DNA from: a virus
Length of the DNA: 29,128 nucleotides
IMG/VR virus record: IMGVR_UViG_3300045009_000068
Coordinates: 1-29,128 of that record
Reading direction: 5' to 3' (one strand)
Translations under genes and position numbers: made by a program
In this document: one piece after another, positions 4,443 to 27,632 of the stretch
How the letters are laid out: every line of letters begins with the position of its first letter
How positions within the stretch are numbered: the stretch's first letter is position 1
Notes under the pieces: model-generated
Seen by the model: the letters and a program-made list of their open reading frames with translations, nothing else
What the model was told of the DNA's origin: nothing
The model's database searches: none

Positions 4443-5351
4443 ATGTCTGCGCCTTGGTTCCCGATGTACCCAACCGATTTCCTAGTCAGCACAGCGACGA
4501 TGTCGCCCGTCCAGGGCTGGGCGTACACGCAACTGCTGATGTACTCCTGGACGAACGGCTGCATTCCAGATGACCGCGAGCAGTGCGCGGCACTCACTCG
4601 GTGTCCGCTGTCCGAGGCCGACTGGGCGGTGCTTCGCGGGCGGTTCGAGCCAATGGCAACCCCAATGGCCACCCCAATGGCAACCCCAATGGCCACCCTA
4701 TGCAACCCACGCATGGAGCGGGAGCGTGCGCGGGTCAGGGACCGCCACGATGCGGCATCCGAGGCTGGCAAGCGTGGCGCGAAAGCCCGTTGGGAGCGTG
4801 GAAATGGGGTAGCCAATGGCAACCCCAATGGCAACCCCAATGGCCACCCCAATGGCAAATCGATGGCAACCACAACCACAACCACAAACAAACCCCCCCT
4901 ACCCCCCCAAGGGGGGACGGGGGCGGGGGTTGTTGACATTCGTGAGGCGGACCTGCGGAGGCTGGTCATGCGCGAGCCGGCGTGGCGAACGCGCATCGAG
5001 AGAGCGGAGGCAGGTGACCTGTACGACGAGGACAGGCAACCCATCGAGGCGGCCACGGTCCTCGCCACGGCCATGAACACAGTGCGCGACAGGACGCTGA
5101 CCGAACGCGATGCGGTCATCGAGCGCGTGACGGCTCGAGGACTGTCAGGCGACGAGGCTGCGCAGCTGTGGCACGCTTGGTTCGCGGCGCACCTCGGCGG
5201 CGGCCCAGCGCCAGCCGCTGCCTTGCGCAGCGATCTCAACGACAAGTCGATCCGCAATCACGCGAGCGTGTGGAGGGCGCGACTCGGCGGCAGGTACAAT
5301 CCCGAACATGGCGAGACGCAGGGGACCAGTGCTATTGGCGGGGATGGATGA
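4443..5351 (+). CDS. DUF1376 (YdaU-type) putative replication protein, 302 aa
   Basis: Residues about 3-70 (PWFPMYPTDFLVSTATMSPV, GWAYTQLLMYSWTNGCIPDD, then DREQCAALTRCPLSEADWAVL) match DUF1376, a domain at the N-terminus of prophage proteins such as YdaU that are thought to organise replication. Residues about 70-85 (PMAT repeats) and 124-140 (NGNP/NGHP repeats) are low complexity and come from one 12-bp DNA repeat in two frames. A charged helix (ERARVRDRHDAASEAGKRG) lies between them. A Thr/Pro/Gly linker and a helical C-terminal domain (about 165-302) follow. The start at 4443 is set by GGAAGGA. In lambda the origin lies inside the initiator gene O, and the repeats suggest the same plan here. 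That is inference. Confidence 0.8.
   Translation: MSAPWFPMYPTDFLVSTATMSPVQGWAYTQLLMYSWTNGCIPDDREQCAALTRCPLSEADWAVLRGRFEPMATPMATPMATPMATLCNPRMERERARVRDRHDAASEAGKRGAKARWERGNGVANGNPNGNPNGHPNGKSMATTTTTTNKPPLPPQGGTGAGVVDIREADLRRLVMREPAWRTRIERAEAGDLYDEDRQPIEAATVLATAMNTVRDRTLTERDAVIERVTARGLSGDEAAQLWHAWFAAHLGGGPAPAAALRSDLNDKSIRNHASVWRARLGGRYNPEHGETQGTSAIGGDG
4651..4698. repeat. Iteron-like array 1: four 12-bp repeats
   Basis: Four head-to-tail units at 4651, 4663, 4675 and 4687 that alternate CAATGGCAACCC and CAATGGCCACCC without a gap. In the gene frame they read P-M-A-T four times. The alternation makes a perfect 24-bp double unit. Confidence 0.85.
4814..4873. repeat. Iteron-like array 2: three full and two degenerate 12-bp repeats
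   Basis: Units at 4814 and 4826 (CAATGGCAACCC) and 4838 (CAATGGCCACCC), then two diverged units in phase at 4850 and 4862. Here the same DNA unit is read in another frame, as N-G-N-P / N-G-H-P. A lower-GC stretch of ACAACC repeats follows directly (4866-4892), as would suit a melting region next to iterons. Confidence 0.85.
4893..4929. repeat. C-tract/G-tract block with hairpin and quadruplex potential
   Basis: Seven C, TA, seven C, AA, six G, AC, five G, C, five G. The second C run and first G run form a hairpin with a 2-base turn. The three G runs (the first long enough to split) could form a G-quadruplex in single-stranded DNA or RNA. The block lies at the right edge of the iteron arrays. 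Confidence 0.7.
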
Positions 5352-5717: not shown

Positions 5718-5999
5718 ATGACGGTCAACACGTTCGACGAGTTCCGAGACGCAATCGTCGCGCACCTTGAGGCCCGCGGGGCCACGCGCAACGATCTAGC
5801 GGTCGAACTCGAACGCAGGCAGATCTTGCGTGCACACTCCGTGCGCTGCATCCTGAGCCAGGCGCCTAGCCTGCGCAGGCGGTACGCATCGTTCGCCTCC
5901 ATCCTCGCCATCGCCGACGCGGCAGGATTTGACATCAAACTCTCACCCAAGAAGCGCGGTCGAATCCGCAACCTTTCAACCAAGAATGAAACGGAATAA
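5718..5999 (+). CDS. Small HTH-like (XRE-type) putative transcription regulator, 93 aa
   Basis: Residues about 18-75 follow the XRE-type helix-turn-helix pattern: a helix (DEFRDAIVAHLEARG), the turn-helix TRNDLAVELERRQ, a recognition-like helix AHSVRCILSQ and a last helix FASILAIADAAGFDIKL. A basic tail (PKKRGRIRN) follows. It probably binds an operator as a dimer. The dyads at 1759-1781 and 4282-4310 are candidate targets. The frame runs back to 5631, but I chose ATG 5718 because the HTH pattern begins there and a promoter ends 7 bases before it. There is no ribosome-binding site, as in leaderless lambda cI made from PRM. The gene ends 2 bases before the next small gene. Confidence 0.65.
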   Translation: MTVNTFDEFRDAIVAHLEARGATRNDLAVELERRQILRAHSVRCILSQAPSLRRRYASFASILAIADAAGFDIKLSPKKRGRIRNLSTKNETE

Positions 6000-6001
6000 G
6001 A

Positions 6002-6154
6002 ATGCCAAGCAAGTCACCAGCACAACGCCGCCTGATGCAGGCGGCAGCTCACAATCGCTCGTTCGCCAAGAAGGCGGGAGTCCCGCAGTCCGTCGCCCGC
6101 GAGTTCGTCCGGGCCGACAAGGCCAAGGCGGCGAAGCGCAGACGCTACCGGTAA
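6002..6154 (+). CDS. Small basic phage protein, 50 aa
   Basis: ATG at 6002 behind GGAATAAGA. The product begins MPSKSPAQRRLMQAAAHN, continues FAKKAGVPQSVAREFVRADK and ends KAAKRRRYR. I have the impression of similar 45-60-residue proteins beginning MPSKSxAQxRLMxAAAH next to packaging genes in many phages. Their function is unknown. It is helical and strongly basic, so it may bind DNA or be carried in the virion. It ends 2 bases before the terminase small subunit ATG (TAAGGATG), which suggests coupled translation. It is easy to miss because a longer frame lies over it. Confidence 0.75.
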   Translation: MPSKSPAQRRLMQAAAHNRSFAKKAGVPQSVAREFVRADKAKAAKRRRYR

Positions 6155-6156
6155 GG

Positions 6157-6546
6157 ATGGGCAGGCCGCTAGAGCCTGTACCGCCCGATCAGGCGGCTAG
6201 CCTGATCAAATGGCTGTCAGATGGCCGTCCGCTCCGGGAATGGTGCAGACAGCCGGGAAACACCCCCTGGCAGACGGTCTATCACTGGATGGACAAAGAT
6301 GAGGACTTTGTGAGACGCATCGCACGCGCACGCGAGGACGGCTACGACGTGATCGCCGACCAGTGCATGGTGCTCGCCGACCTCGAGCCGACCGACCCGC
6401 TGCACGTCAACTGGCGGCGGCTTCAGGTCGAAACCCGGCTCAAGCTGCTTGCCAAGTGGAACCCCAAGAAGTACGGCGACCGCCAAACCGTTGACCATGC
6501 CGGCGGCGTGACCCTGAATGTCATCACGGGCGTGCCCAGCGAATGA
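6157..6546 (+). CDS. Terminase small subunit, 129 aa
   Basis: Binds phage DNA and presents it to the large subunit for packaging. Residues 1-45 (GRPLEPVPPDQAASLIKWLS, PLREWCRQPGNTPWQTVYHW) form a helix-turn-helix in which a short basic start is followed by a W-x-x-V-Y-x-W recognition helix. Then come FVRRIARAREDGYDVIADQC and a helix region (HVNWRRLQVETRLKLLAKWN) before PKKYGDR and a short tail. This order fits the Sf6-gp1-like small terminase family. The long open frame upstream is only the shadow of the 50-aa gene. The stop overlaps the large subunit start (ATGA), which supports the call. Confidence 0.85.
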   Translation: MGRPLEPVPPDQAASLIKWLSDGRPLREWCRQPGNTPWQTVYHWMDKDEDFVRRIARAREDGYDVIADQCMVLADLEPTDPLHVNWRRLQVETRLKLLAKWNPKKYGDRQTVDHAGGVTLNVITGVPSE

Positions 6547-7865
6547 CCGCGCAGCGACTCGACTACCAACCTCGAGCATGGCAGCGCGAATGCCATGTGC
6601 GGCGGCGGCGGTTCACCGTGCTCGCCCTGCACCGACGCGCAGGCAAGACGGAACTTGCCATCATGGAGTTGATCGACAAGGCGCTCAAGTGCAAGCAGGA
6701 ACTAGGGTTCTACGTCTATGTCGCCCCGTTCCTCAGGCAAGCCAAAGCCATCGCCTGGGCGAGACTCAAGGGCAAACTGCAACCTCTGCGCCATTCCGCG
6801 CTTGAGATCAACGAGGCCGACCTAGCCGTCACGTTCAAGCACAACGGCGCGACCATTCGCCTGTTCGGCGGCGACAACCCCGACGCCCTGCGCGGCGTGC
6901 GGCTCGACGGATGCGTCATTGACGAGGTCGCCCAGATCCGGCCCGAGGTCTGGAACGACATCATTCAGCCCGCCCTGTCTGATCGCAAGGGCTGGGCCAT
7001 GTTCATCGGCACGCCGGCGGGCGTGAACCTGTTTAGCGAGCTGTTCTACCGCGCCACAAGCCTGCCCGACTGGTGGGCAGCGCGGTACACGGTCAACGAC
7101 ACGGACGCCATCGACCGGGCCGAGGTCGAGCGCCTACAGCGCGACATGCCCGAGAGCGCCTACGCCCGCGAGTACCTGTGCGATTTTACCGCAGCAGGCG
7201 ACAACCAACTCATCACCCTGTCCGACGCTGAAAACGCGGCGCAGCGGCGATACGAGGACGCCGACATCCTCGACATGCCGCTCGTCATGGGGGTGGACGT
7301 GGCACGGTTCGGCGATGACCGCAGCGTAATCGTGTTCCGGCAGGGCCGGTCGATGGAGCCGCCCATCACGATGCAGGGCATCGACAACATGGCGCTTGCT
7401 GGCCGCATTGCCAATCTCATTGAGGACCGCGACCCGGACGCGGTGTTTATCGATGTCGGCGGCGGGGCCGGCGTGATCGACCGCCTGCGGCAGCTCGACT
7501 ACGACGTGGTCGAGGTTAATTTTGGGGCGAAGGCGATCCATCCCAACCTGTATGTCAACAAGCGCAGCGAGATGTGGTGGGGCATCAGGGAGTGGATTGA
7601 CAATGGCGGCGCGATCCCGAATGAATCCACGCTCAAGGCCGAACTAGCCACCCCGACCTACACCTACGACTCGCTTGGCAGGCGTGCGCTTGAGAGCAAG
7701 GACGAGATCAAGAAGCGCCTACAGGGCGGCTCCAGCCCGGACATTGCCGACGCGCTCGCGCTCACGTTCGCGTTCCCGGTCGCCAAGGCGCTGCCACGCG
7801 AGGTCAGGGAGCGGCTAGACCCACGCGCACGGAAGGACTACGACCCCTACGAGGCCATGCAATGA
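6543..7865 (+). CDS. Terminase large subunit, 440 aa
   Basis: The packaging motor: an ATPase that pumps DNA into the prohead and a nuclease that cuts the concatemer. Walker A is LHRRAGKT (residues 29-36, K35), and Walker B is GCVIDEVAQI (D127, catalytic E128). The C-terminal RNase-H-like nuclease has its acidic residues in VMGVDVARFGDD (D252), VFIDVGGGAG (D304) and SPDIADALALTF (D400/D403). The length is usual for podoviral enzymes of the kind seen with BPP-1-like heads. The gene starts in an ATGA overlap with the small subunit and ends in an ATGA overlap with the acetyltransferase. The type of end (headful or fixed) cannot be told from sequence alone. Confidence 0.95.
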   Translation: MTAQRLDYQPRAWQRECHVRRRRFTVLALHRRAGKTELAIMELIDKALKCKQELGFYVYVAPFLRQAKAIAWARLKGKLQPLRHSALEINEADLAVTFKHNGATIRLFGGDNPDALRGVRLDGCVIDEVAQIRPEVWNDIIQPALSDRKGWAMFIGTPAGVNLFSELFYRATSLPDWWAARYTVNDTDAIDRAEVERLQRDMPESAYAREYLCDFTAAGDNQLITLSDAENAAQRRYEDADILDMPLVMGVDVARFGDDRSVIVFRQGRSMEPPITMQGIDNMALAGRIANLIEDRDPDAVFIDVGGGAGVIDRLRQLDYDVVEVNFGAKAIHPNLYVNKRSEMWWGIREWIDNGGAIPNESTLKAELATPTYTYDSLGRRALESKDEIKKRLQGGSSPDIADALALTFAFPVAKALPREVRERLDPRARKDYDPYEAMQ

Positions 7866-8308
7866 ACATTCGACTAGCGACCGTCGAGGACGCAGCCGCG
7901 TTGACAGAGATGGGGCGCGAGTTTATTGAGTACAGCGAGTACCGCAACCTGGCGGTGACAGACGAGCAGTTGCAATCAGGCATAGCCCAGATCATTGCGT
8001 TTGAGTGTTCATTCGTCGCCGAACTCGACGGGCGCATTGTTGGTGCGATCATCGGCGTGACTGGGCCGATGTGGTTTGCGGCGCACATCCGCACGCTAAT
8101 CGAGCTGGCTTGGTGGGTCGATCCGGCCTACCGCACCACCTCGGTTGGCATTCGGCTGATCAAGGAGTTTGAGGAGCATGGCCGTCATCTAGGGGTGCAA
8201 TACATCGCAATGAGCGATCTAGTTGTGGCAGGTGACACACCTGTTGCAAGATTGCTAGGTCGAATGGGTTATAGTGTGACAGAACGTATGCACACGAAGG
8301 AGCTTTGA
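7862..8308 (+). CDS. GNAT-family acetyltransferase, 148 aa
   Basis: The pattern is NIRLATVEDAAALTEMGREF at the start, a beta strand SFVAELDGRIVGAIIGV, then IELAWWVDPAYRTTSVGIRL (the region that binds the acetyl-CoA pyrophosphate, with R-x-x-S-V-G-I instead of the usual R-G-x-G-x-G/A) and a C-terminal VARLLGRMGYSVTER. Length and order are those of a single-domain GNAT enzyme. Similar enzymes often lie between terminase and portal in podoviruses. The target (host protein, virion protein or small molecule) is unknown. Start ATGA-overlaps the terminase. Towards its end the gene is less GC-rich than its neighbours. Confidence 0.85.
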   Translation: MNIRLATVEDAAALTEMGREFIEYSEYRNLAVTDEQLQSGIAQIIAFECSFVAELDGRIVGAIIGVTGPMWFAAHIRTLIELAWWVDPAYRTTSVGIRLIKEFEEHGRHLGVQYIAMSDLVVAGDTPVARLLGRMGYSVTERMHTKEL

Positions 8309-17304: not shown

Positions 17305-19389
17305 ATGCCGACCGTACCAACCACATTCGTCCCACAGGTCAACCCGTCTGGTGGCGGCGACATCGGCGACTTTGCCGCGCCGCCCGTGCAGCCGATGGCA
17401 AACTACACGCCGGAGCAGATGCAGCAGTTCGGACGCGCCATGACGCAGGCCGGCAATGTCGCCTTCAGCGTCGGCGTGGCGATTCAGGACACGATCAACG
17501 AGGCCGAGACTAAGGCTAGCGATGTGTCGTTCCTCGAGCAAGCCAACGCCATCATGCGCGGCCAGAACGGCTACCTGAACACCTCCGGCAAGCAGGCAGA
17601 GGACTCATTTCAGGCCACGCAGGATGCGCTCTCGCAGGCTGGTCAGCAGGCGATGGACCGCCTACAGAACGAATCGCAGCGGCGCATGTTTCAGGGCGTT
17701 CTTGCCCGCAACATGCAATCCTTCCAGATGCAGGCGTTCGCGCACCGTGACAAGGAAGTCAAAGTCTATGCCACCAATGAGGCGAAGATTCGGGCGCAGC
17801 AGTACGTCAATCTAGCCGTGCAGGATTACAAGGCACGCGACCAGGTCGGCGAGGACGGCCTGCCGTCGGGTGCGTTCACGGCCAACCTCGGCGTGGCCCT
17901 GAACGAGGCACGCGCCGCGGGCCGGCTGATGGGCTTTGCCGAGGACAGCGCCCAGATGCGCGAGCTTGAGAACGGCGTGTACACGCTGGCAACTCAGGGC
18001 GTAGTCAATCGCCTGATGCTCGACAGCGACTACAACTCGGCACTGTTGTATGTGCGCGAGCAGCTCGAGCGAGGCCGCATCGACGCGAGCGTGGCCGATC
18101 CCCTGATTGCTTCCCTCGACGCGAACCGCAGGAAGCAGATGGTCGAGGACTTGACCGTCAGCATCAAGACTCAGGGGCTGCTCGACAGCAAGGCCGGCAC
18201 AGCGAACTTCGGCGATGTCGTACCGAATGCGAGGTACGACGTGAATGGCAAACGGCTGGACATGTCGGTCGCGCCTGGCACGCCGATCAACGCTCCCGCT
18301 GACGGCACGATCAAGGCTATCGACGGCAACACCGTCGTGGTGGAAACCGAGGACGGAACGCAATACACGCTCAGCAATGTCGATACATGGGGCATGCTTG
18401 AGCAGGGTGCATCGATCCGCAAGGGTGGGCTGGTTGGCGCGGCAGGCAATGACGGCGAGGCCGTTGACGGTCTGTATCCGGTGGGATACAGCATCAAGCG
18501 CAACGGCAAGGCCATCGACCCGCGCAACGCCAACGCCATCGTTGACATGCCACGCGATGAGGCCACGCCGCCGGCGAGCCTGACCGACGCGCTGCGGATC
18601 GCCGCTGAGATCCCGGATGCGGAAATGCGGCGGCTAGTGCAGTCGAACCTGCGCCAGTCATATCAGCAAGACAAGGCCATCGCAGACTTTGAGTACGGCC
18701 AACGCATTGAGGCCATCGAGCAGTACTTGGCACGTCCCGACGCGACCGTTGCGCAGATCCCGCCCGAGGTCTTCGGTGCGCTCAAGCCCAAGGATCAGGA
18801 CAGGCTGCTCAAGGGCCAGCGTGAGAAGGACGAGGTCGATGTGATGGAACAGATCGCACGCGATCCGTCCATTGTCAGTCGGGAATGGCTGAACGAGAAC
18901 CGTAGTCGTATGACGCGCACGACTTTCAACAAGTTGCTCGGCGACCTGAACGATCCGCCCAAGATGCAGGAAGCAAGCGTAGACGCTGATCTTGTCAACG
19001 CAACGCTTGTGCGTAACGGCTTGAATGATCTTGCGTTTCCGCGGCGGGAGGAACAGAAGTCGGCATCGCTTCTGTTCCGCGACAATGTCACGCAGGCTAT
19101 TAGTTACGAGCAAATGTTGACGGGACGCAAGTTGGGCCGCGAGGAGAAGCAGGCCGTCATTGACAATCTGTTACTTGACCGTGCATTCGATGAGTATGGA
19201 GCAAGCAATGTCATTGCCGCAATGACGCCAGAACAGCAGAGTGAGGCTTATGCCGACATCATCGAAAGCATTCCCGACAAGGAACGCCAGCAGATCAAGG
19301 CCGCTCTCGAAGCAACCAATCAGCGCGTCAACGCCGCGAACATGGCGATGATGTATCTCCAGTACGAACGCATGAAGAAGGCTGAGTAA
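17305..19389 (+). CDS. Putative ejection protein with degenerate M23-peptidase fold, 694 aa
   Basis: Mostly helical (residues 30-300 and 420-694), in the T7 gp15 position between the small and giant ejection proteins. Residues about 310-412 read as an M23 (lysostaphin/LytM) beta fold: RLDMSVAPGTPINAPADGTI, then VVVETEDGTQYTLS, GASIRKGGLVGAAGNDG, YPVGYSIKRNGKAIDP. Compared with active M23 enzymes, the first zinc His maps to Gly315, Asp319 is kept, and the H-x-H pair maps to Pro392-Val393-Gly394. So the fold seems present but the zinc site is lost, and the domain may only bind peptidoglycan or serve as structure. The stop overlaps the next ATG by one base (TAATG). Confidence 0.75.
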   Translation: MPTVPTTFVPQVNPSGGGDIGDFAAPPVQPMANYTPEQMQQFGRAMTQAGNVAFSVGVAIQDTINEAETKASDVSFLEQANAIMRGQNGYLNTSGKQAEDSFQATQDALSQAGQQAMDRLQNESQRRMFQGVLARNMQSFQMQAFAHRDKEVKVYATNEAKIRAQQYVNLAVQDYKARDQVGEDGLPSGAFTANLGVALNEARAAGRLMGFAEDSAQMRELENGVYTLATQGVVNRLMLDSDYNSALLYVREQLERGRIDASVADPLIASLDANRRKQMVEDLTVSIKTQGLLDSKAGTANFGDVVPNARYDVNGKRLDMSVAPGTPINAPADGTIKAIDGNTVVVETEDGTQYTLSNVDTWGMLEQGASIRKGGLVGAAGNDGEAVDGLYPVGYSIKRNGKAIDPRNANAIVDMPRDEATPPASLTDALRIAAEIPDAEMRRLVQSNLRQSYQQDKAIADFEYGQRIEAIEQYLARPDATVAQIPPEVFGALKPKDQDRLLKGQREKDEVDVMEQIARDPSIVSREWLNENRSRMTRTTFNKLLGDLNDPPKMQEASVDADLVNATLVRNGLNDLAFPRREEQKSASLLFRDNVTQAISYEQMLTGRKLGREEKQAVIDNLLLDRAFDEYGASNVIAAMTPEQQSEAYADIIESIPDKERQQIKAALEATNQRVNAANMAMMYLQYERMKKAE

Positions 19390-22300
19390 TGCAGGAAGAC
19401 AACCTGTCGGACATCACGCTGACCCCGCGCATCCCGTCCGCCGAGGAGAATCCGTTCATCCCAATGGCGCAGCAGATGGCGCAGCCGGACCAACTCGGGC
19501 TGAACACGCCAGAGGACAACCCGTTCCTCGCCATTGCCAAGGGCATGGGCGGAGAAGGTCAGCCGCCGGCCATTGGGTCGATTGCTAGCACGCTGTCGAT
19601 CAACCCTGACCAAGCAGCGCAGGCGAGCAAGCTTGGCGGTCAGTTTGGTCTTGGTCAGGACATCGCGCTGCGCAACATGGACGAACTGCGCCGGCGTTCT
19701 CTCATTACTCGCTTGAAGCAGACGGGGATGCTTGAGAAGAACTTGGCACTTGCCGAGTCGCTTGCCAATCCTGCGTTCGCGGCTCAGGCTCACGATGACA
19801 TCGACAACCTGGCCGAAACCGGGTCGTGGATTGACAGCATCAGCAAGGGGTTTGAGGGTGGGTTCCTGATGCAGGAAATGGGAGAACTGCGGTTCTCGCC
19901 ATTGAGCGGTGAAAGGTTCTACGGTGCGACCGAAGCGCAGCAAGAGCGCATTGAACAGGTTCGCAAGCGTATGCAGGAAACGCAGGGAAGCGGAATCCTG
20001 TACATGACGGCGCAAGTCATTGCCCAGCAACTTGCGCAAGCGAAGGGAATTGGCACGTTGGCCCTGACGGGATTTGGCATTGGTGGCGCAGCAGGAGGCG
20101 CACCTGGCGCGATTGCTGTCGGTGGTGTTAGTGCAGCGACTGCGATTGTGCTGACCACAGCGCAGATGGAAGCCGGCCTGCTGTACGACGAACTTGAACA
20201 GGCTGGCGTTGATCCAGAAACGGCTACGACGGCAGCCGTCATTGGCGGCACGATCAATGGTGCTATTGAACTGCTCGGCGCGAAGGTCGCAGCAGCTCCA
20301 TTCCGACCATTGATTCGTCGCCTGATCGCAGACCGCGTTAAAGCATTGGCGATGCCGACGATGCGCACGGCGGCAAAGGGATTCGCTAAGGGCTATGCAA
20401 CGCAGGTTGGCACGGAAACGCTCGAAGAAACCGTCCAGGAAATCACTGCTATGGCAGCGAGCGAAATCGCCAAGGCGGCAGATGGGATTGATTCAGAAAC
20501 AACGTGGACGGACGCGCTGACTCGTATCACCGATGCGGCTATCGGTGGTTTCCAAGGCAGCCTGCTGCTTGGCGGTATTGGCCCCGGAGCCAACTTTATT
20601 GTCGATGCGCGGCGAGCCAAGCAGACTGCTGCCCAGCAGAAGTGGCTTGACGGTTTGCAGGAGCGCGTTGAGGAATCCAAGGTCCGCAAGCGCAATCCCA
20701 ATGCGTTCCAAGAGTTTGTTGAGAAGCAGGTGCAGGGAACGACCGTTGACACGATCTATGTTGAAGCGGAGGAGGCCAAGGCCGTTCTTGCGCAGCTCAA
20801 CCTGACGGCTAGCCAGGTTAACGCGATTGTGCCGGGGTTCGCAGAACAGGTGCGCGAACAGCTTGAACGTGGCGGCGATGTCACGATCCCGACTGCGGTG
20901 TTCTCGGCAAAGCTTGCCAACACGGACCTAGGAAACGCCCTGCGACCGCATATGCGCCTGTCGCCTGATGCGTTGAGCGTGACGCAGTTAGAGGCCGTGC
21001 GTGCCGAGCGCGAGCGTATGTCGGCGGCCGGTCAAGATGTCATCGACGAGCGTCTGGCGGCGGAGGACACGGCGTTCGTTGAGAGTGCTACGCGGGTTGA
21101 GGAAACGATGTACGGCGAGCTGACGGCTGCCGGCCAGTCCGCGACAGAGGCCAAGATCAACGCCGAGTTCTTCCGCAACATAATGTCGTCGCTTGCTGAC
21201 CGCGTTGGCGTAACGCCTGAGCAGATGTTTGAGCGTTACCCGTACCGCGTCCGCGGCGAGGGCCAGGCGGCGGGGCCGATGGAGCAGGCGGCTCAAATTC
21301 CTGCACCAGACGCTGGCGTTTTCGATGTCAACAACCCACCGCAGGCGACGCCTGGTGTGCGAGAGAATGTCGCTGGCGATGCGATTGTTGCGTTGATGGA
21401 CTATGACGGGACGGTGTATTACGACGTAAACGCCACGATGCACGGTGATTTGATTGACACATTCCCAGAGATTGCTGACACTGTTATTGATGGTGGATTC
21501 ATCATTAATGGCAAGTATGTACCGAATATGTCAGACGGTGGGTATGCGGCTATCGAAGGTGGAGACGAGCGCATTGCCGAGGTCAAAGAGTTCACTAAGC
21601 GAGTGAACACGCGCACCACGCCGAAAGGGGATCGTGTCAGATTTGCCGAACCAGGCATAGGCGATCAGTTACAGCAAGCCGCCCCCGGCTTCTACTCCGC
21701 TCTTGAGCGCGAAGTCGCGGCCATTGATGCCAAGGCGTTGACCGCAGCCGGCTGGGGCGAGCGGTTCAAGGGGCTGATCGCTAAGGGCGCGTTCAAGGCT
21801 GACGAGCTTGAGTGGTCCGGCCTCGCCGACTACCTGAAGATGCAGGAGGGCAAGGTGTCGAAGGACACCGTGCTGGAATTCCTGCGCGGCAACGGCGTGC
21901 GCGTGGAGCGGGTGTCTCTTGGGGATAACGCGGATGCGTTGATTGCGGCTGCTAACGCTGGAACTGACGCAGCAGAGAACTTGCTGATCGACGCCGACTT
22001 GATGACTGAAGATTTGGCTCAACAGTTTGCCAAGTATCGCCAGTTCATCGTGGTCCGCACCCCGTTTGGAGCCGAGCAGCGGGCATTAGCGTCTGTACGC
22101 ATCGATACGGCGCTTGGCGAGGCGTTTGGAACGGATCTTGATTACTACATTGAGGCAGAATACGTTGAGCAACCTGCGTCAAAGTATGAGCAATACACGC
22201 TCCCCGGCGGCACGAACTACCGCGAGGTGCTGCTGACGCTGCCAGCTGGATTCCAGGCTCCCATGCCTGCGGTATCGCCTGAAGGTTTGGCTGCGCGGGG

Positions 22301-25300
22301 AGTGATCTTTGCTAAGTACGCGCCGCGGCTTGCGGAACTAGAACGCGAGGGCAACAGCCTGATGTTTGCTGGTCGTGCGCTGACCGACGAGGAAGCGCAG
22401 CGATTGGCTGATGTCCGAAACGAGCGCGACGAAATAGAGGAGCAGCGCAATGCTGAGGCACGCGCTGCATACGAAATTCCAGAACGCCCAGCCGCACCGG
22501 AATTCAGCACTGCGCACTGGGATCAACCCAATGTCCTCGTTCACCTTCGCATGAACAACCGCGTCGATGCAGACGGCAAGCGCGTTTTGTTTGTGGAGGA
22601 AGTGCAGAGCGACTGGGGGCAGACGGGTCGCAAGAAGGGATTTGCAACACCTTTGTTGCAAACCTTGCCAGAAGGAACTGTTGTGTACGAGAAGGGGCAA
22701 CACCCAAAGGAACCACATGTAGCCGTTGTTGAGTTGCCATCAAGCATTGGCGGAAGATCGTTGTTCTACGGCGAAACGGTTGAGGAAGCCACTGCTAACG
22801 CTCTTGCATTTACAAAGCCGGGATCAGTTGCTCGCGCCCCGTTTGTTGAAACCACGGATGGCTGGCTGAACCTTGGGCTGAAGCAAGTGCTGCTCGAAGC
22901 TATGCGCGGCAACTATGACCGCGTGGCGTTTGTAAACGGCAAACAGAGCGCCGAGCGGTATGACTTGAGCAAGCAGGTGAGTTTGGTGTCTGTCAACAAG
23001 CAGGCCGATGGCCGATTCCTGACCTATCTTGAAGGCGTTGATGGCACGGCCCTAATCCGCAACCGCGACGGGTTTAGCGACGCCGGGCAAAAGGTGATGA
23101 CCGCTGAAGAGCTAGAGGCGACTGTTGGAAAAGAAGTCGCACTACAGCTCATTGAGGGCAAGCCCAACAAGGACGGTTGGGTCGATGTACGCGGCGACAA
23201 CCTGCGCGTCGGCGGCGAAGGCATAAAAGAGTTTTATGACAAGATCGTGCCTGCGGCCATGAACAAGCTGCTAAAGAAGTACGGTGGCCTACGCATAGGC
23301 CCAGTTGAATTGGAAGGAATGGCCAACATTCCTAAATACGACATCCTAAACACTGGCAGCAGATGGCAACTAATTGATCGCGCAAGCGGCGAGCGCGTTC
23401 CAAACTCGCCAACGTTTCGCTCTGGTGCGGAAGCAGAGCAATGGATTGCAACAAATACAAACACGGTTCAACCCGGTTTCAACATCACGCCTGAACTCGT
23501 CACGAAGTTGGAGTCCGGGCTGCCGCTGTTTCAAGCCGCCCGCGGTCTCGCCCGCGGCGGATTCGACCCAAAGAAGCTCCTGACCACGCTGAACAAGGAT
23601 GCTGACTTCAGCACCTTTGCGCACGAGACGGCGCACTACTTCCTGACGATTCTTGGGGATGTGGCATCACGGCTTGACGCGCCGGATTTTGTCCGTGCCG
23701 ATATGGACACGCTGCTGCGGTGGTTCGGCGTCAAGGATTTGGCAACGTGGAACGCGATGTCGCTGGACCAGCAGCGTCAGTACCACGAGCAGTTCGCATA
23801 CTCGTTTGAAACCTACCTGTTTGAAGGCAAGTCGCCGAGCGTTGAGATGCAGGGTCTGTTCGATCAGTTCGCACGCTGGCTCAAGCAGGTCTATCAGGGT
23901 CTCATCACCAAGATCAATGACATCTACAAGGCCGAGTTCGGCAAGGATCTGCCGATCCTGACGGGCGAGGTGCGCCAGGTCATGGACCGCATGCTAGCGA
24001 CCGATGACCAGATCGCCCGCGCTCAGGCCATCCGCGAGATGAAGCCGCAGTTCCAGACGCAGGAACAGTCCGGCATGGATGATGCGACGTGGGCGGCCTA
24101 TCAGGAACTTCAAGAGCAGGCGACCGAGCGGGCGGTAGCGGAACTGACTACGGCGACCCTCAAGGAAATGGCGTGGATGTCGCGTGCTCGTGGCCGCAAG
24201 CTGCGCGAGCTACAACGTCAGCACGATGACAAGCGCAAGGAGATCAAGGATCAGGTCACTGAGGATCTGCGCATCCTGCCCGTCTACCGTGCGATGGAGT
24301 TCCTGAGGCGCGGCAAGGTGGTCGATGTTGATGGCACGACCAAGCCGGCGACTGGTCAGTTCAAGCTGTCGGTGGCTGGCGTACAGGCTGTCATGCCGCC
24401 GGGCTTCGATGTCGCCACCCTTGGCCGTGGCCGCTACGGCATGGTCAACGAGGACGGCCTGCACCCTGACCTCATTGCTCCGCTGTACGGGTACGCCAAC
24501 GGCGCGGACCTCGTCACGGCCCTGTCAACGGCCAAGCCATTTGCCGAGGCGGTCGCCGAGCGCACTGACCAGCGGATGCTTTCAGAGTTCAGTGAACTGG
24601 CCGACCCGGCTGCGCGTTCGTTGGCGGTTGATCGTGCCATCCACAACGAGGCACGCGCCCGCCTGATTGCGGTTGAGCAGCGGTGGGCAGCCAAGTTGCA
24701 GCAGCCCGTCAACGTCATCATGGAGGCGGCTAGCCAGGTTGCGGCCGAGATCATTGGGCGGCAGAAAATCCGCACCCTTTCGCCACGCGCCTACGCCGCC
24801 GCAGAGGCCCGTGCTGCCCGTCTTGCGACCTCGGCCTACCGCGAACCCCAGTCGCCCGAGCAGGCTGGTCAGACGGCTGCTACGCGGGCCTACAACGAGG
24901 CCATAGCCGCCGGCAAGACGGTGGATGAGGCGACCGCAGACAGCCTAGCGGCAGGCGTGGAGGCGGTCGCCAAGGCCCGTGAACGGCGTGCCGAGTTCGA
25001 TGCCAAGTTCGGCGGTCAGACCCCGGCAGAGGTCGTGATGCGGGCCAAGCGTCAGCAGCTCTTGCAGAACATGCTTGCTCGTCAGGCGCTTGAGGCCCGC
25101 GCCGAGATCGACCGCGATAGGTCGGCGTTCAAACGGTTCTTTGGCTCGGACGAGAAGATCGCCAAGACCCGCAACATGGAGATAGTGTCGGCGGCCCGCG
25201 CCATCCTCGGCTGGTATGGGTTTGGCAAGCGCGACAAGTCGCCTGCGGAATACGTCGAACAATTGAAGGCGTATAACCCGGCTGCATATGCAACCCTTGA

Positions 25301-27632
25301 GCCGCTGATTCTGCGGGCCACGAAGGGGCCGCAGGACTACCGCGACCTGACGGTTGACGAGTTCCGTGTGCTGCGCGACACGGTTAACGGGCTTTGGATT
25401 CAGGCCCGAAAGGACAAGCAGGTCAAGTTGGCCGACCGCACGATGGCACTTGACGAGGTCGTTGGTGAACTTGACAAGCGACTTGAGGAGATCGGCGTAC
25501 CAACGGTTGTGGCTGGCGAACGCCGAGCACCGACGTCCAGAGACCGTGCCGCTCGCAATTTGATGACGCTGCGCTCCACTATGCGCCGCGTGGAGTCGTG
25601 GGCCGACGCGATGGACGGCGTGTCAACCGTGCGTCCGTTCACGATCTACTTGGTTCGCCCTGTACTTGATGCTGTTGACAAGTTCACGGCTAGCCGCAAC
25701 AAGTACATGAAGCGGTTCCGCGACCTAGTGGTTGGCCTCCAGATGCCGGAAGGAACCATTGCGGCTCCAGAACTCAACTACACCTTCGGCGCTGGCAACG
25801 CCGGCATTGGCAAGGCAGAACTTCTCGGAGCCCTGCTCCATACGGGCAACGCCAGTAACTACCGCAAGTTGCTGCTTGGACGCGGCTGGGGTCAGGAGGA
25901 CAAGTTCGGCAACCTTGATGACACGCAGTTCAGGGCGTTCGTCAAGCGCATGCAGGACGAAGGCGTTCTGACAAAGGCGGACTACGAATTCTTGCAGGCG
26001 ATATGGGATCTCAACGAGGAAATCAAGCCCATCGCCCAGAAGGCGCACTACGAGCTGTACGGGTTCTACTTCACGGAGATCCCGGCGAGCGAGGTGGTCA
26101 CGCCATTCGGAACCTATCGCGGCGGCTACGTCCCGGCTGCTGCCGACAAGTTCATGGTGGCGGATGCGGCGCAGCGTGCCGGCGAGGAAGAGCTTGAGTC
26201 TGACTGGCGCAACTCGCTGCCGAGTACCGGACGCGGGTTCACGAAGGCGCGTGTTGCTGGTTACAACAAACCGCTGTCGCTTGACGTTCGTGTGATCGGC
26301 GCCCACATCGATGCCGCGCTTCGGTTCTCCATGATTCAGCCAGCCATTACTCAGGCGCTGCGCATCCTGCGCTCGCGTGAGTTTGCGGCCCGTCTTGACC
26401 GCGTTGACCCCACCGTCAAGCAGGAACTGCTGATCCCGTGGCTAAACAGAACGGCACGGCAGTTGGTATCGCAGCCTGGCAAGTACAAGGCGGTTGACAA
26501 CTTCTGGCGTGGCGTGCGCACGCGGACGGGCATGTCAATCATGTTCGCCAACCTGCGCAACGCCTTGCAGCAGTTCACGGGTTTGTTCCCGGCTGGACTA
26601 AAGGTGCAGCCTCGCTACCTCACGTCGGCGCTGACCGAGTATGTCGGCTCTCCGCAGCGGACGGCCAACAGCGTTGCTGCCCTGTCGCCTTTCATGGAGG
26701 ACCGCCTGCGGGGTCAGTCGTTTGAGATGCAGGAGCAGATCAACGAGGTGCTGCTGAACCCCAGCCGCTTTGACAGGGTGCAGGCATGGACTGACCGACA
26801 CGGGTACTTCCTGCAACAGGCTTTCCAGAACATGGTTGACGTGGTCACCTGGGTAGGCGCTTACAACCAGTCGCTGTCAACAGCCGATACGACGGTGACG
26901 GCAGAGGAGGCCCAGCGCGAGGCCATCGCCGCCGGCGACGCTGCGGTTCGGTTGACGCAGGGCAGCGTGCGCCCGAGCGACGTGTCTGCGTTTGAGTCTG
27001 GAACGCCGTTCTTCCGCACCCTGACGCAGTTTGCTGGTTACTTCAACATGCTCGCCAACCTGAACGCCACAGAGTATGTCAAGGTCATCCGCGACATGGG
27101 TTTCCGTGGCAACAAGGGCAAGTTGGTCTATATCTACATAATGGGGTTCATGCTGCCGGCGGTGGTTGCCGACGCCATCGTCCGCACGCTCGGCGGTGGG
27201 TGGGAGGACGAGGACGAGGACGGCTATCTGGACACGTTCATAAATTGGTTCTTCGGGAGCCAGATCCGGCAGGGCGTGGCGTTCGTGCCGTTTGGCACGA
27301 CGGCCTACACGCTGCTTACAACGGCGTTCGATGACAAGCCATACAACGACCGTATGACTACTAGCCCATCCGTTGCCTCGCTTGAGGCGGCAACAGTTGG
27401 CGTCGGCAAGGCGGCAATTGCCGTGGTTGACGAGGAGAAGGACGCGACGGGCAGGAACGTCCGCGACGTGCTGACGCTCTTGAGCCTGGCGACCGGGATT
27501 CCGTTCAGCGTGCTCGGTCGCCCCGCCGGGTATCTGATCGATGTTCAGCGTGGCGAGGTCGAACCCACTAGCACCTACGATATGATCCGTGGCACGATTA
27601 CTGGTACTGCCACGCCGGAGAGCAAGCGATGA
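19389..27632 (+). CDS. Giant polyvalent-type ejection protein, 2747 aa, with HExxH and LPD38-like domains
   Basis: The largest gene, in the T7 gp16 position. Visible parts: Gly/Ala hydrophobic segments (about 208-305, membrane-seeking); a helical part to about 650; a conserved-looking module (about 755-1400) with FYSALEREVAAID, ADELEWSGLADYLKM, VLVHLRMNNRVDADGKRVLF, EVQSDWGQ (1071-1078) and GGEGIKEFYDKIVP (1275-1288), a pattern I connect with large phage and conjugative-element polyvalent proteins; a zincin with H1412-E-T-A-H1416 and likely third ligand E1467 in HEQFAYSFETYLFEG; a charged coil (about 1570-1630); and an LPD38-like C-terminus (about 2060-2740) with one membrane-like helix (about 2577-2604) and an acidic WEDEDEDGY. 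No lytic transglycosylase motif is seen. It probably enters the host with the DNA, forms part of a channel and carries enzyme modules. Confidence 0.8.
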   Translation: MQEDNLSDITLTPRIPSAEENPFIPMAQQMAQPDQLGLNTPEDNPFLAIAKGMGGEGQPPAIGSIASTLSINPDQAAQASKLGGQFGLGQDIALRNMDELRRRSLITRLKQTGMLEKNLALAESLANPAFAAQAHDDIDNLAETGSWIDSISKGFEGGFLMQEMGELRFSPLSGERFYGATEAQQERIEQVRKRMQETQGSGILYMTAQVIAQQLAQAKGIGTLALTGFGIGGAAGGAPGAIAVGGVSAATAIVLTTAQMEAGLLYDELEQAGVDPETATTAAVIGGTINGAIELLGAKVAAAPFRPLIRRLIADRVKALAMPTMRTAAKGFAKGYATQVGTETLEETVQEITAMAASEIAKAADGIDSETTWTDALTRITDAAIGGFQGSLLLGGIGPGANFIVDARRAKQTAAQQKWLDGLQERVEESKVRKRNPNAFQEFVEKQVQGTTVDTIYVEAEEAKAVLAQLNLTASQVNAIVPGFAEQVREQLERGGDVTIPTAVFSAKLANTDLGNALRPHMRLSPDALSVTQLEAVRAERERMSAAGQDVIDERLAAEDTAFVESATRVEETMYGELTAAGQSATEAKINAEFFRNIMSSLADRVGVTPEQMFERYPYRVRGEGQAAGPMEQAAQIPAPDAGVFDVNNPPQATPGVRENVAGDAIVALMDYDGTVYYDVNATMHGDLIDTFPEIADTVIDGGFIINGKYVPNMSDGGYAAIEGGDERIAEVKEFTKRVNTRTTPKGDRVRFAEPGIGDQLQQAAPGFYSALEREVAAIDAKALTAAGWGERFKGLIAKGAFKADELEWSGLADYLKMQEGKVSKDTVLEFLRGNGVRVERVSLGDNADALIAAANAGTDAAENLLIDADLMTEDLAQQFAKYRQFIVVRTPFGAEQRALASVRIDTALGEAFGTDLDYYIEAEYVEQPASKYEQYTLPGGTNYREVLLTLPAGFQAPMPAVSPEGLAARGVIFAKYAPRLAELEREGNSLMFAGRALTDEEAQRLADVRNERDEIEEQRNAEARAAYEIPERPAAPEFSTAHWDQPNVLVHLRMNNRVDADGKRVLFVEEVQSDWGQTGRKKGFATPLLQTLPEGTVVYEKGQHPKEPHVAVVELPSSIGGRSLFYGETVEEATANALAFTKPGSVARAPFVETTDGWLNLGLKQVLLEAMRGNYDRVAFVNGKQSAERYDLSKQVSLVSVNKQADGRFLTYLEGVDGTALIRNRDGFSDAGQKVMTAEELEATVGKEVALQLIEGKPNKDGWVDVRGDNLRVGGEGIKEFYDKIVPAAMNKLLKKYGGLRIGPVELEGMANIPKYDILNTGSRWQLIDRASGERVPNSPTFRSGAEAEQWIATNTNTVQPGFNITPELVTKLESGLPLFQAARGLARGGFDPKKLLTTLNKDADFSTFAHETAHYFLTILGDVASRLDAPDFVRADMDTLLRWFGVKDLATWNAMSLDQQRQYHEQFAYSFETYLFEGKSPSVEMQGLFDQFARWLKQVYQGLITKINDIYKAEFGKDLPILTGEVRQVMDRMLATDDQIARAQAIREMKPQFQTQEQSGMDDATWAAYQELQEQATERAVAELTTATLKEMAWMSRARGRKLRELQRQHDDKRKEIKDQVTEDLRILPVYRAMEFLRRGKVVDVDGTTKPATGQFKLSVAGVQAVMPPGFDVATLGRGRYGMVNEDGLHPDLIAPLYGYANGADLVTALSTAKPFAEAVAERTDQRMLSEFSELADPAARSLAVDRAIHNEARARLIAVEQRWAAKLQQPVNVIMEAASQVAAEIIGRQKIRTLSPRAYAAAEARAARLATSAYREPQSPEQAGQTAATRAYNEAIAAGKTVDEATADSLAAGVEAVAKARERRAEFDAKFGGQTPAEVVMRAKRQQLLQNMLARQALEARAEIDRDRSAFKRFFGSDEKIAKTRNMEIVSAARAILGWYGFGKRDKSPAEYVEQLKAYNPAAYATLEPLILRATKGPQDYRDLTVDEFRVLRDTVNGLWIQARKDKQVKLADRTMALDEVVGELDKRLEEIGVPTVVAGERRAPTSRDRAARNLMTLRSTMRRVESWADAMDGVSTVRPFTIYLVRPVLDAVDKFTASRNKYMKRFRDLVVGLQMPEGTIAAPELNYTFGAGNAGIGKAELLGALLHTGNASNYRKLLLGRGWGQEDKFGNLDDTQFRAFVKRMQDEGVLTKADYEFLQAIWDLNEEIKPIAQKAHYELYGFYFTEIPASEVVTPFGTYRGGYVPAAADKFMVADAAQRAGEEELESDWRNSLPSTGRGFTKARVAGYNKPLSLDVRVIGAHIDAALRFSMIQPAITQALRILRSREFAARLDRVDPTVKQELLIPWLNRTARQLVSQPGKYKAVDNFWRGVRTRTGMSIMFANLRNALQQFTGLFPAGLKVQPRYLTSALTEYVGSPQRTANSVAALSPFMEDRLRGQSFEMQEQINEVLLNPSRFDRVQAWTDRHGYFLQQAFQNMVDVVTWVGAYNQSLSTADTTVTAEEAQREAIAAGDAAVRLTQGSVRPSDVSAFESGTPFFRTLTQFAGYFNMLANLNATEYVKVIRDMGFRGNKGKLVYIYIMGFMLPAVVADAIVRTLGGGWEDEDEDGYLDTFINWFFGSQIRQGVAFVPFGTTAYTLLTTAFDDKPYNDRMTTSPSVASLEAATVGVGKAAIAVVDEEKDATGRNVRDVLTLLSLATGIPFSVLGRPAGYLIDVQRGEVEPTSTYDMIRGTITGTATPESKR
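22641..22662. repeat. Inverted repeat TTTGCAAC-N6-GTTGCAAA inside the giant gene
   Basis: Perfect 8-bp arms with a 6-base loop (22641-22648, 22655-22662), inside the AT-richer stretch that codes for the residues just after the EVQSDWGQ motif. It is in frame and read as part of the protein. It may be chance, an insertion scar or an RNA hairpin. Confidence 0.4.

Follow-up and report, generated by a model that had tools for sequence, protein, structure and literature searches.

In phage lambda the replication origin is laid out inside gene O, the gene of its initiator (PMC7466680, PMC8022706), and the iterons of lambda, P22 and phage L differ, each set being matched to its own initiator (PMC8022706). 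We noted that the four annotated iterons of lambda gene O start at offsets of 0, 2, 2 and 1 modulo 3, with an inverted repeat located after them. An active origin, oriJ, was reported for the Rac prophage of E. coli (PMC3945230). For Bartonella, the run-off replication origin (ROR gene 4) was proposed to be phage-derived and to be contained in an O-like gene that precedes a helicase gene; palindromes occur within it, and its GC content first dips and then peaks (PMC3610622). An origin within an initiator gene is already known; what would be new here is this layout for DUF1376, a family of unknown function. In the literature covered, which excluded most subscription papers, we found no report tying DUF1376 to an origin.

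The DNA analyzed here (referred to as the window) is a linear virus record with a length of 29,128 bp. It includes a DUF1376 gene (4443–5351, plus strand, 302 amino acids) that contains two arrays of one 12-bp unit. We consider it probable (about 0.78) that the arrays serve as iterons in an origin of phage replication which, like that of lambda in gene O, is placed within the gene encoding its own initiator. The window shares with the origin of lambda in gene O (gene 18 in P22 and phage L) tandem iterons of the dyad type, which occur in several frames at a central position of the (here putative) initiator gene, downstream of the part for the DNA-binding N-domain, and which precede a strand-asymmetric tract and an inverted repeat. 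In contrast to lambda, the iteron has a length of 12 bp instead of 18–20 bp, one array lies in the predicted wing of the DNA-binding domain and no helicase loader gene was seen in the window family. We detected no similarity between DUF1376 and lambda O, with an hhalign probability of 0.4% for the one O sequence compared. The layout proposed for the Bartonella ROR origin resembles that of the window as well. A link between ROR and DUF1376 was rejected, as the DUF1376 gene that we found in a Bartonella assembly (L224) lies among different genes.

Repeat arrays and flanking elements in the window

Array 1 (4650–4698, plus strand) consists of four 12-bp iterons CCAATGGC(A/C)ACC in the frame P-M-A-T (codons CCA ATG GCA ACC), and array 2 (4813–4873, plus strand) of five 12-bp iterons, three of them exact and two degenerate, in the frame N-G-N/H-P (codons AAT GGC AAC CCC for N-G-N-P). 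Exact matches to CAATGGC(A/C)ACCC were found seven times in the window, four at 4651–4698 and three at 4814–4849, all of them inside the DUF1376 gene, compared to 0 in 100 dinucleotide shuffles; the degenerate copies lie at 4850–4861 and 4861–4872. The core CCAATGGC occurs 10 times in the window versus 1.3 expected, with 8 of these 10 within the two arrays, and the arrays are also the top-scoring tandem repeats of the whole window. A previous sequence-only reading of this DNA had reported the seven exact units, the two arrays and the degenerate copies at these positions, together with an offset of 163 bp (1 modulo 3) that places one unit in two reading frames, and our counts bear out each of these observations. 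It had also drawn the parallel to lambda. There, too, the iterons differ in their frame within gene O, and the argument from reading frames hence has a proven precedent.

Directly at the start of array 2 we observed a 19-bp dyad, GGGTAGCC-AAT-GGCAACCC (4807–4825), in which an inverted half-unit opposes the first array 2 unit. This dyad is the sole match in the window and is absent from the shuffles, and the inverted half-unit before array 2 is also present in most close relatives. Tandem dyad-symmetric repeats of one DNA unit are hence found within a putative initiator reading frame. Array 2 runs into an A/C-only, strand-asymmetric tract composed of (ACAACC)n and C7 (4867–4899, plus strand), a candidate unwinding region. 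With 33 nt it is the longest A/C-only run of the window (the runner-up has 12 nt), its A+T content is only modestly high, and most relatives show a similar A/C run just past array 2. The tract is followed by a C/G block (4893–4916), made up of paired C7 tracts at 4893–4899 and 4902–4908 and an inverted repeat C6-CAA-G6 at 4902–4916. Almost every relative has paired C-tracts (C6-7) after array 2, and such tracts were observed in E. coli ydaU as well. Most relatives also show the C/G inverted repeat, with a differing stem sequence, but L037, L038 and L080 do not. We rejected it as a conserved hairpin, since it is not universal and exceeds a synonymous null in some relatives only. The ACAACC stretch and the G/C-tract block that had been pointed out after the arrays are both real, while the 19-bp dyad, the full A/C-only extent and the inverted repeat had gone unnoticed.

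The DUF1376 protein and the location of the arrays

The gene at 4443–5351 scored 30.8 bits against the PF07120 profile and narrowly exceeds the cut-off of 30.1 bits, in agreement with the earlier assignment to DUF1376; among the relatives the scores reach up to 35.4 bits. A profile–profile comparison between the group of the window gene and distant DUF1376 sequences yielded a probability of 97.4%, and the PHROG match of the gene was to families annotated as ‘primosomal protein’. Using the window protein as query, tblastn gave no match at 1e-5 among named phages, and the distant DUF1376 phages were reached only via other queries and looser limits. A comparison of A1 to bacterial genomes gave no relative, and among solved structures there was no convincing relative by sequence.

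The product is a putative replication initiator with a predicted winged-helix N-domain, a disordered linker and a helical C-domain. In the AlphaFold2 model the helices of the N-domain span residues 10–17, 22–38, 45–52 and 58–65, and the predicted wing (codons 69–87, 4647–4703, plus strand) is formed by strands 69–71 and 85–87 with a loop that is encoded by array 1. Array 1 corresponds to residues 70–85 of this wing loop, which is the least confident part of the predicted N-domain (pLDDT <50 for residues 74–79). Array 2 corresponds to residues about 124–144 and is contained, together with the A/C and C/G tracts, in the predicted disordered linker (codons 121–163 with pLDDT <50, 4803–4931, plus strand). 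The model thereby shows both arrays in two structurally permissive stretches of the predicted protein, and a second array in the initiator's own predicted wing is unusual. A fold search with the predicted structure returned winged-helix matches that were generic and weak only (Z up to 5.6), with no specific initiator among them. Many relatives encode short proteins of 163–180 amino acids (L008, L010, L055–L057, L053, L066, L078 and others), which end soon past the C/G tract and do not have the helical C-domain of the window protein. The conserved tail of these short relatives (DPNWVPF, LPF type) is possibly a short motif that binds a host replication protein.

Change of the DNA unit among relatives

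Of two scans of viral contigs, one resulted in 27 loci and the next in a list of 56 loci, in which these 27 are included. With few exceptions the close relatives possess the two arrays, with the P-M-A frame in array 1 and the N-G frame in array 2, and the iteron copy number varies freely among relatives. In the distant loci L020/L076, L024/L085, L079 and L080 the linker repeats alone are kept, and within the linker of L080/L081 the unit has two readings, M-A-T-P and N-G-D-P. In the L038 clade and in L078 both sites carry a new 20-bp palindrome, AGGGTGGCTCAAGC(C/A)ACCCT, which occurs in more than one frame and at spacings of 11, 12, 23 and 34 bp; owing to distances of 23 and 34 bp between the copies in the L038 linker, a single unit is translated there into both GGSSNPT and RVAQATL. 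Units of the type AGCCA(A/T)TGGCT were found at both sites in L053 and L063. A/T flips at the palindrome centre appear as amino acid changes in both arrays (N to I in L056 and L020, M to L in L053). Where the unit of a relative changes, the change affects both arrays together, and the mean fraction of array 1 8-mers found in array 2 is 0.40 for comparisons within an iteron type, compared to 0.08 for those between types, while the N-domain identity between iteron types is still at about 70–80%. The sequence-only reading had expected the unit to be kept while its frame shifts, and the relatives do keep the DNA unit in both frames. It had named PMAT/NGNP peptides kept without the DNA unit as evidence to the contrary, and the opposite was observed.

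We compared the longest word shared between array 1 and array 2 to a synonymous null, for which the protein was fixed and the codons were redrawn from background usage in 2000 draws. The longest exact word common to the window arrays has 34 nt, compared to a null mean of 7.5, and was reached in 0 of 2000 draws. The shared words of L035, L037, L055, L057, L062, L066, L070, L072, L073 and L078 are also above the null (at most 29 of 2000 draws). A weaker excess was observed for L038, L053, L056 and L063, because the array peptides are alike or codon usage alone yields overlap, and L052 shows none. In codon counts, which were drawn from related sequences and hence are not independent, the Asn of N-G is encoded by AAT in 70 of 70 cases (16 relatives), whereas other Asn residues of the same linkers use AAC in 14 of 17 cases, and the Pro preceding M/L-A is encoded by CCA in 27 of 37 cases versus 18 of 104 at other positions.

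Both sites are swapped jointly while the peptides vary freely, and therefore selection keeps the DNA and not the protein. From the comparison of sequences it is close to certain that the 12-bp unit has a role at the DNA level, and both arrays are shown to carry the same unit, which is selected as DNA and evolves in concert between them. That a PMAT/NGNP linker peptide is kept for flexibility or binding, with the DNA repeats as a by-product, is hardly credible. The segments do lie in tolerant regions of the protein, and the N-G and P-M-A peptides recur in close relatives; however, the synonymous null is rejected, the Asn of N-G is always AAT (70/70), the peptide changes completely to RVAQATL/GGSSNPT upon a change of the DNA unit, and the N to I and M to L replacements reflect no more than a flip at the centre of the palindrome in the DNA. 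Neutral slippage with gene conversion between two low-constraint segments of functionless DNA would produce copy numbers that differ among relatives, as is the case here. We regard it as very improbable, considering that the dyad symmetry survives the replacement of the motif, that the layout persists across lineages with N-domains only about 70–80% identical, and that a family-wide excess of repeats and palindromes, described below, is not found in the N-domains of the same genes. The arrays thus represent a clean natural case in which DNA selection overrules protein selection: a unit of 12–20 bp is kept in at least two frames and swapped jointly at two sites, while the peptides are altered beyond recognition.

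Proposed origin function in the window and in DUF1376 genes at large

For a survey of the family, DUF1376 genes from phages and prophages were thinned to 62 at <70% identity. An excess of frame-crossing or inverted 8-mer repeats was observed in 22 of the 52 testable linkers (p ≤ 0.05) compared to 5 of 62 N-domains (Fisher 1.8e-5), the excess being not significant in over half of the 52 linkers. An earlier DUF1376 set compared to flanking reading frames gave a result that agreed with the linker repeat excess. The linkers contain 131 palindromes versus 51 expected (p 2e-7) and 65 GCA-n0-3-TGC dyads versus 19 expected, and in the N-domains neither excess was significant. In the linker of a Plectonema phage we found AGCAATGCT at 12-bp spacing, and the linker repeat of the phiAX1 DUF1376 gene is TGCAAATGCA. 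The DUF1376 gene of an Octadecabacter phage has TAGCAATGCTA once near the wing and once in the linker (L092:1740–1750 and 1857–1867), a placement which resembles the two-site layout of the window. The ydaU gene of the E. coli Rac prophage, DUF1376 by annotation, is similar to the window in its linker repeats AAGCAGATGTTCAA followed by paired ATCCCCCCC tracts, but the repeat is a different one and no wing array was seen. In detail, its linker (L091:5472–5651) shows AAGCAGATGTTCAA at spacings of 33, 33 and 12, inverted TGTTCAAACA/TGTTTGAACA and the paired tracts. The ydaU linker is a candidate position of Rac oriJ; in the papers covered we found no passage that gives the exact position of oriJ.

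Ten genes downstream of DUF1376 genes were scanned, of which four are clear helicases or loaders (DNA primase/helicase, DnaB, DnaC-like and P-like) and one gave a weak loader match. The next gene is DnaB in the Plectonema phage and ydaV, a DnaC-like loader, in the case of Rac ydaU. A DnaB-type helicase or DnaC-like loader was absent in the window and in G001 and G003–G011 (11 records of unknown completeness). Several of these records span 32–40 kb.

We propose that the winged-helix N-domain of the DUF1376 protein would bind the dyad units in both arrays, with GGGTnGCy and rGCnACCC halves as binding sites at a spacing of 11–12 bp, which is about one helical turn. The bound protein would build a nucleoprotein core that may strain or open the neighbouring A/C-only tract, the presumed unwinding site, and that would recruit the host helicase. 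The helicase step would have to use the host, because no DnaB/DnaC-like gene was found in the window family. The reason given for the arrays by the sequence-only reading is very probably right: the relatives uphold the DNA-level role of its candidate origin, whereas the origin, as opposed to another protein-binding site, is what we infer, along with binding by the DUF1376 product. The GC skew, which the sequence-only reading had suggested as a check, is flat in the window with no switch at the arrays and neither supports nor refutes an origin; in four longer relatives the skew follows gene orientation.

A DNA-level role would also be fulfilled by operator or roadblock sites, at which the DUF1376 protein or a repressor controls the gene without any origin. 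Repeated sites of the dyad type that include an inverted half suit any dimeric winged-helix binder, and no observation made here tells operator and origin apart. We nevertheless consider operators unlikely, since the sites are located 200–430 bp inside the gene and not at a promoter, recur together with the A/C tract and the C-tracts, and belong to a gene that in distant DUF1376 phages occupies the initiator slot before helicases or loaders. Less probable still is a packaging site (pac/cos-like) used by the terminase. The gene of the small terminase subunit (PF20901) at 5929–6546 starts about 600 bp downstream, shortly after this module, but distant DUF1376 phages whose linkers also carry repeats have a helicase or loader as the next gene, and a terminase match was obtained for 0 of the 10 downstream genes scanned.

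It is possible, at slightly less than even odds, that DUF1376 proteins at large are O-like phage initiators with their own origin in the linker, and that in the clade of the window the origin spread into the wing loop, so that site and reader became coupled. In that case a change of the DNA site would also alter the protein segment that may recognize it, and the wing-loop array raises the question of whether the specificities of iteron and initiator can evolve together in a single step. The proposal offers a concrete and testable function for DUF1376, which we encountered in many Proteobacteria, in their phages and prophages, and predicts the positions of the origins of these elements.

Three further genes of the window were noted. 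A calcineurin-like phosphoesterase related to phage DNA repair exonucleases (phrog_7339) is encoded at 1857–2771 and is also present in G001. A GNAT-type acetyltransferase gene (7862–8308) is located between the large terminase and head–tail connector genes. A reading frame of 2747 amino acids (19389–27632) has an LPD22 polyvalent-protein domain near its start and adjoins an M23 peptidase gene.
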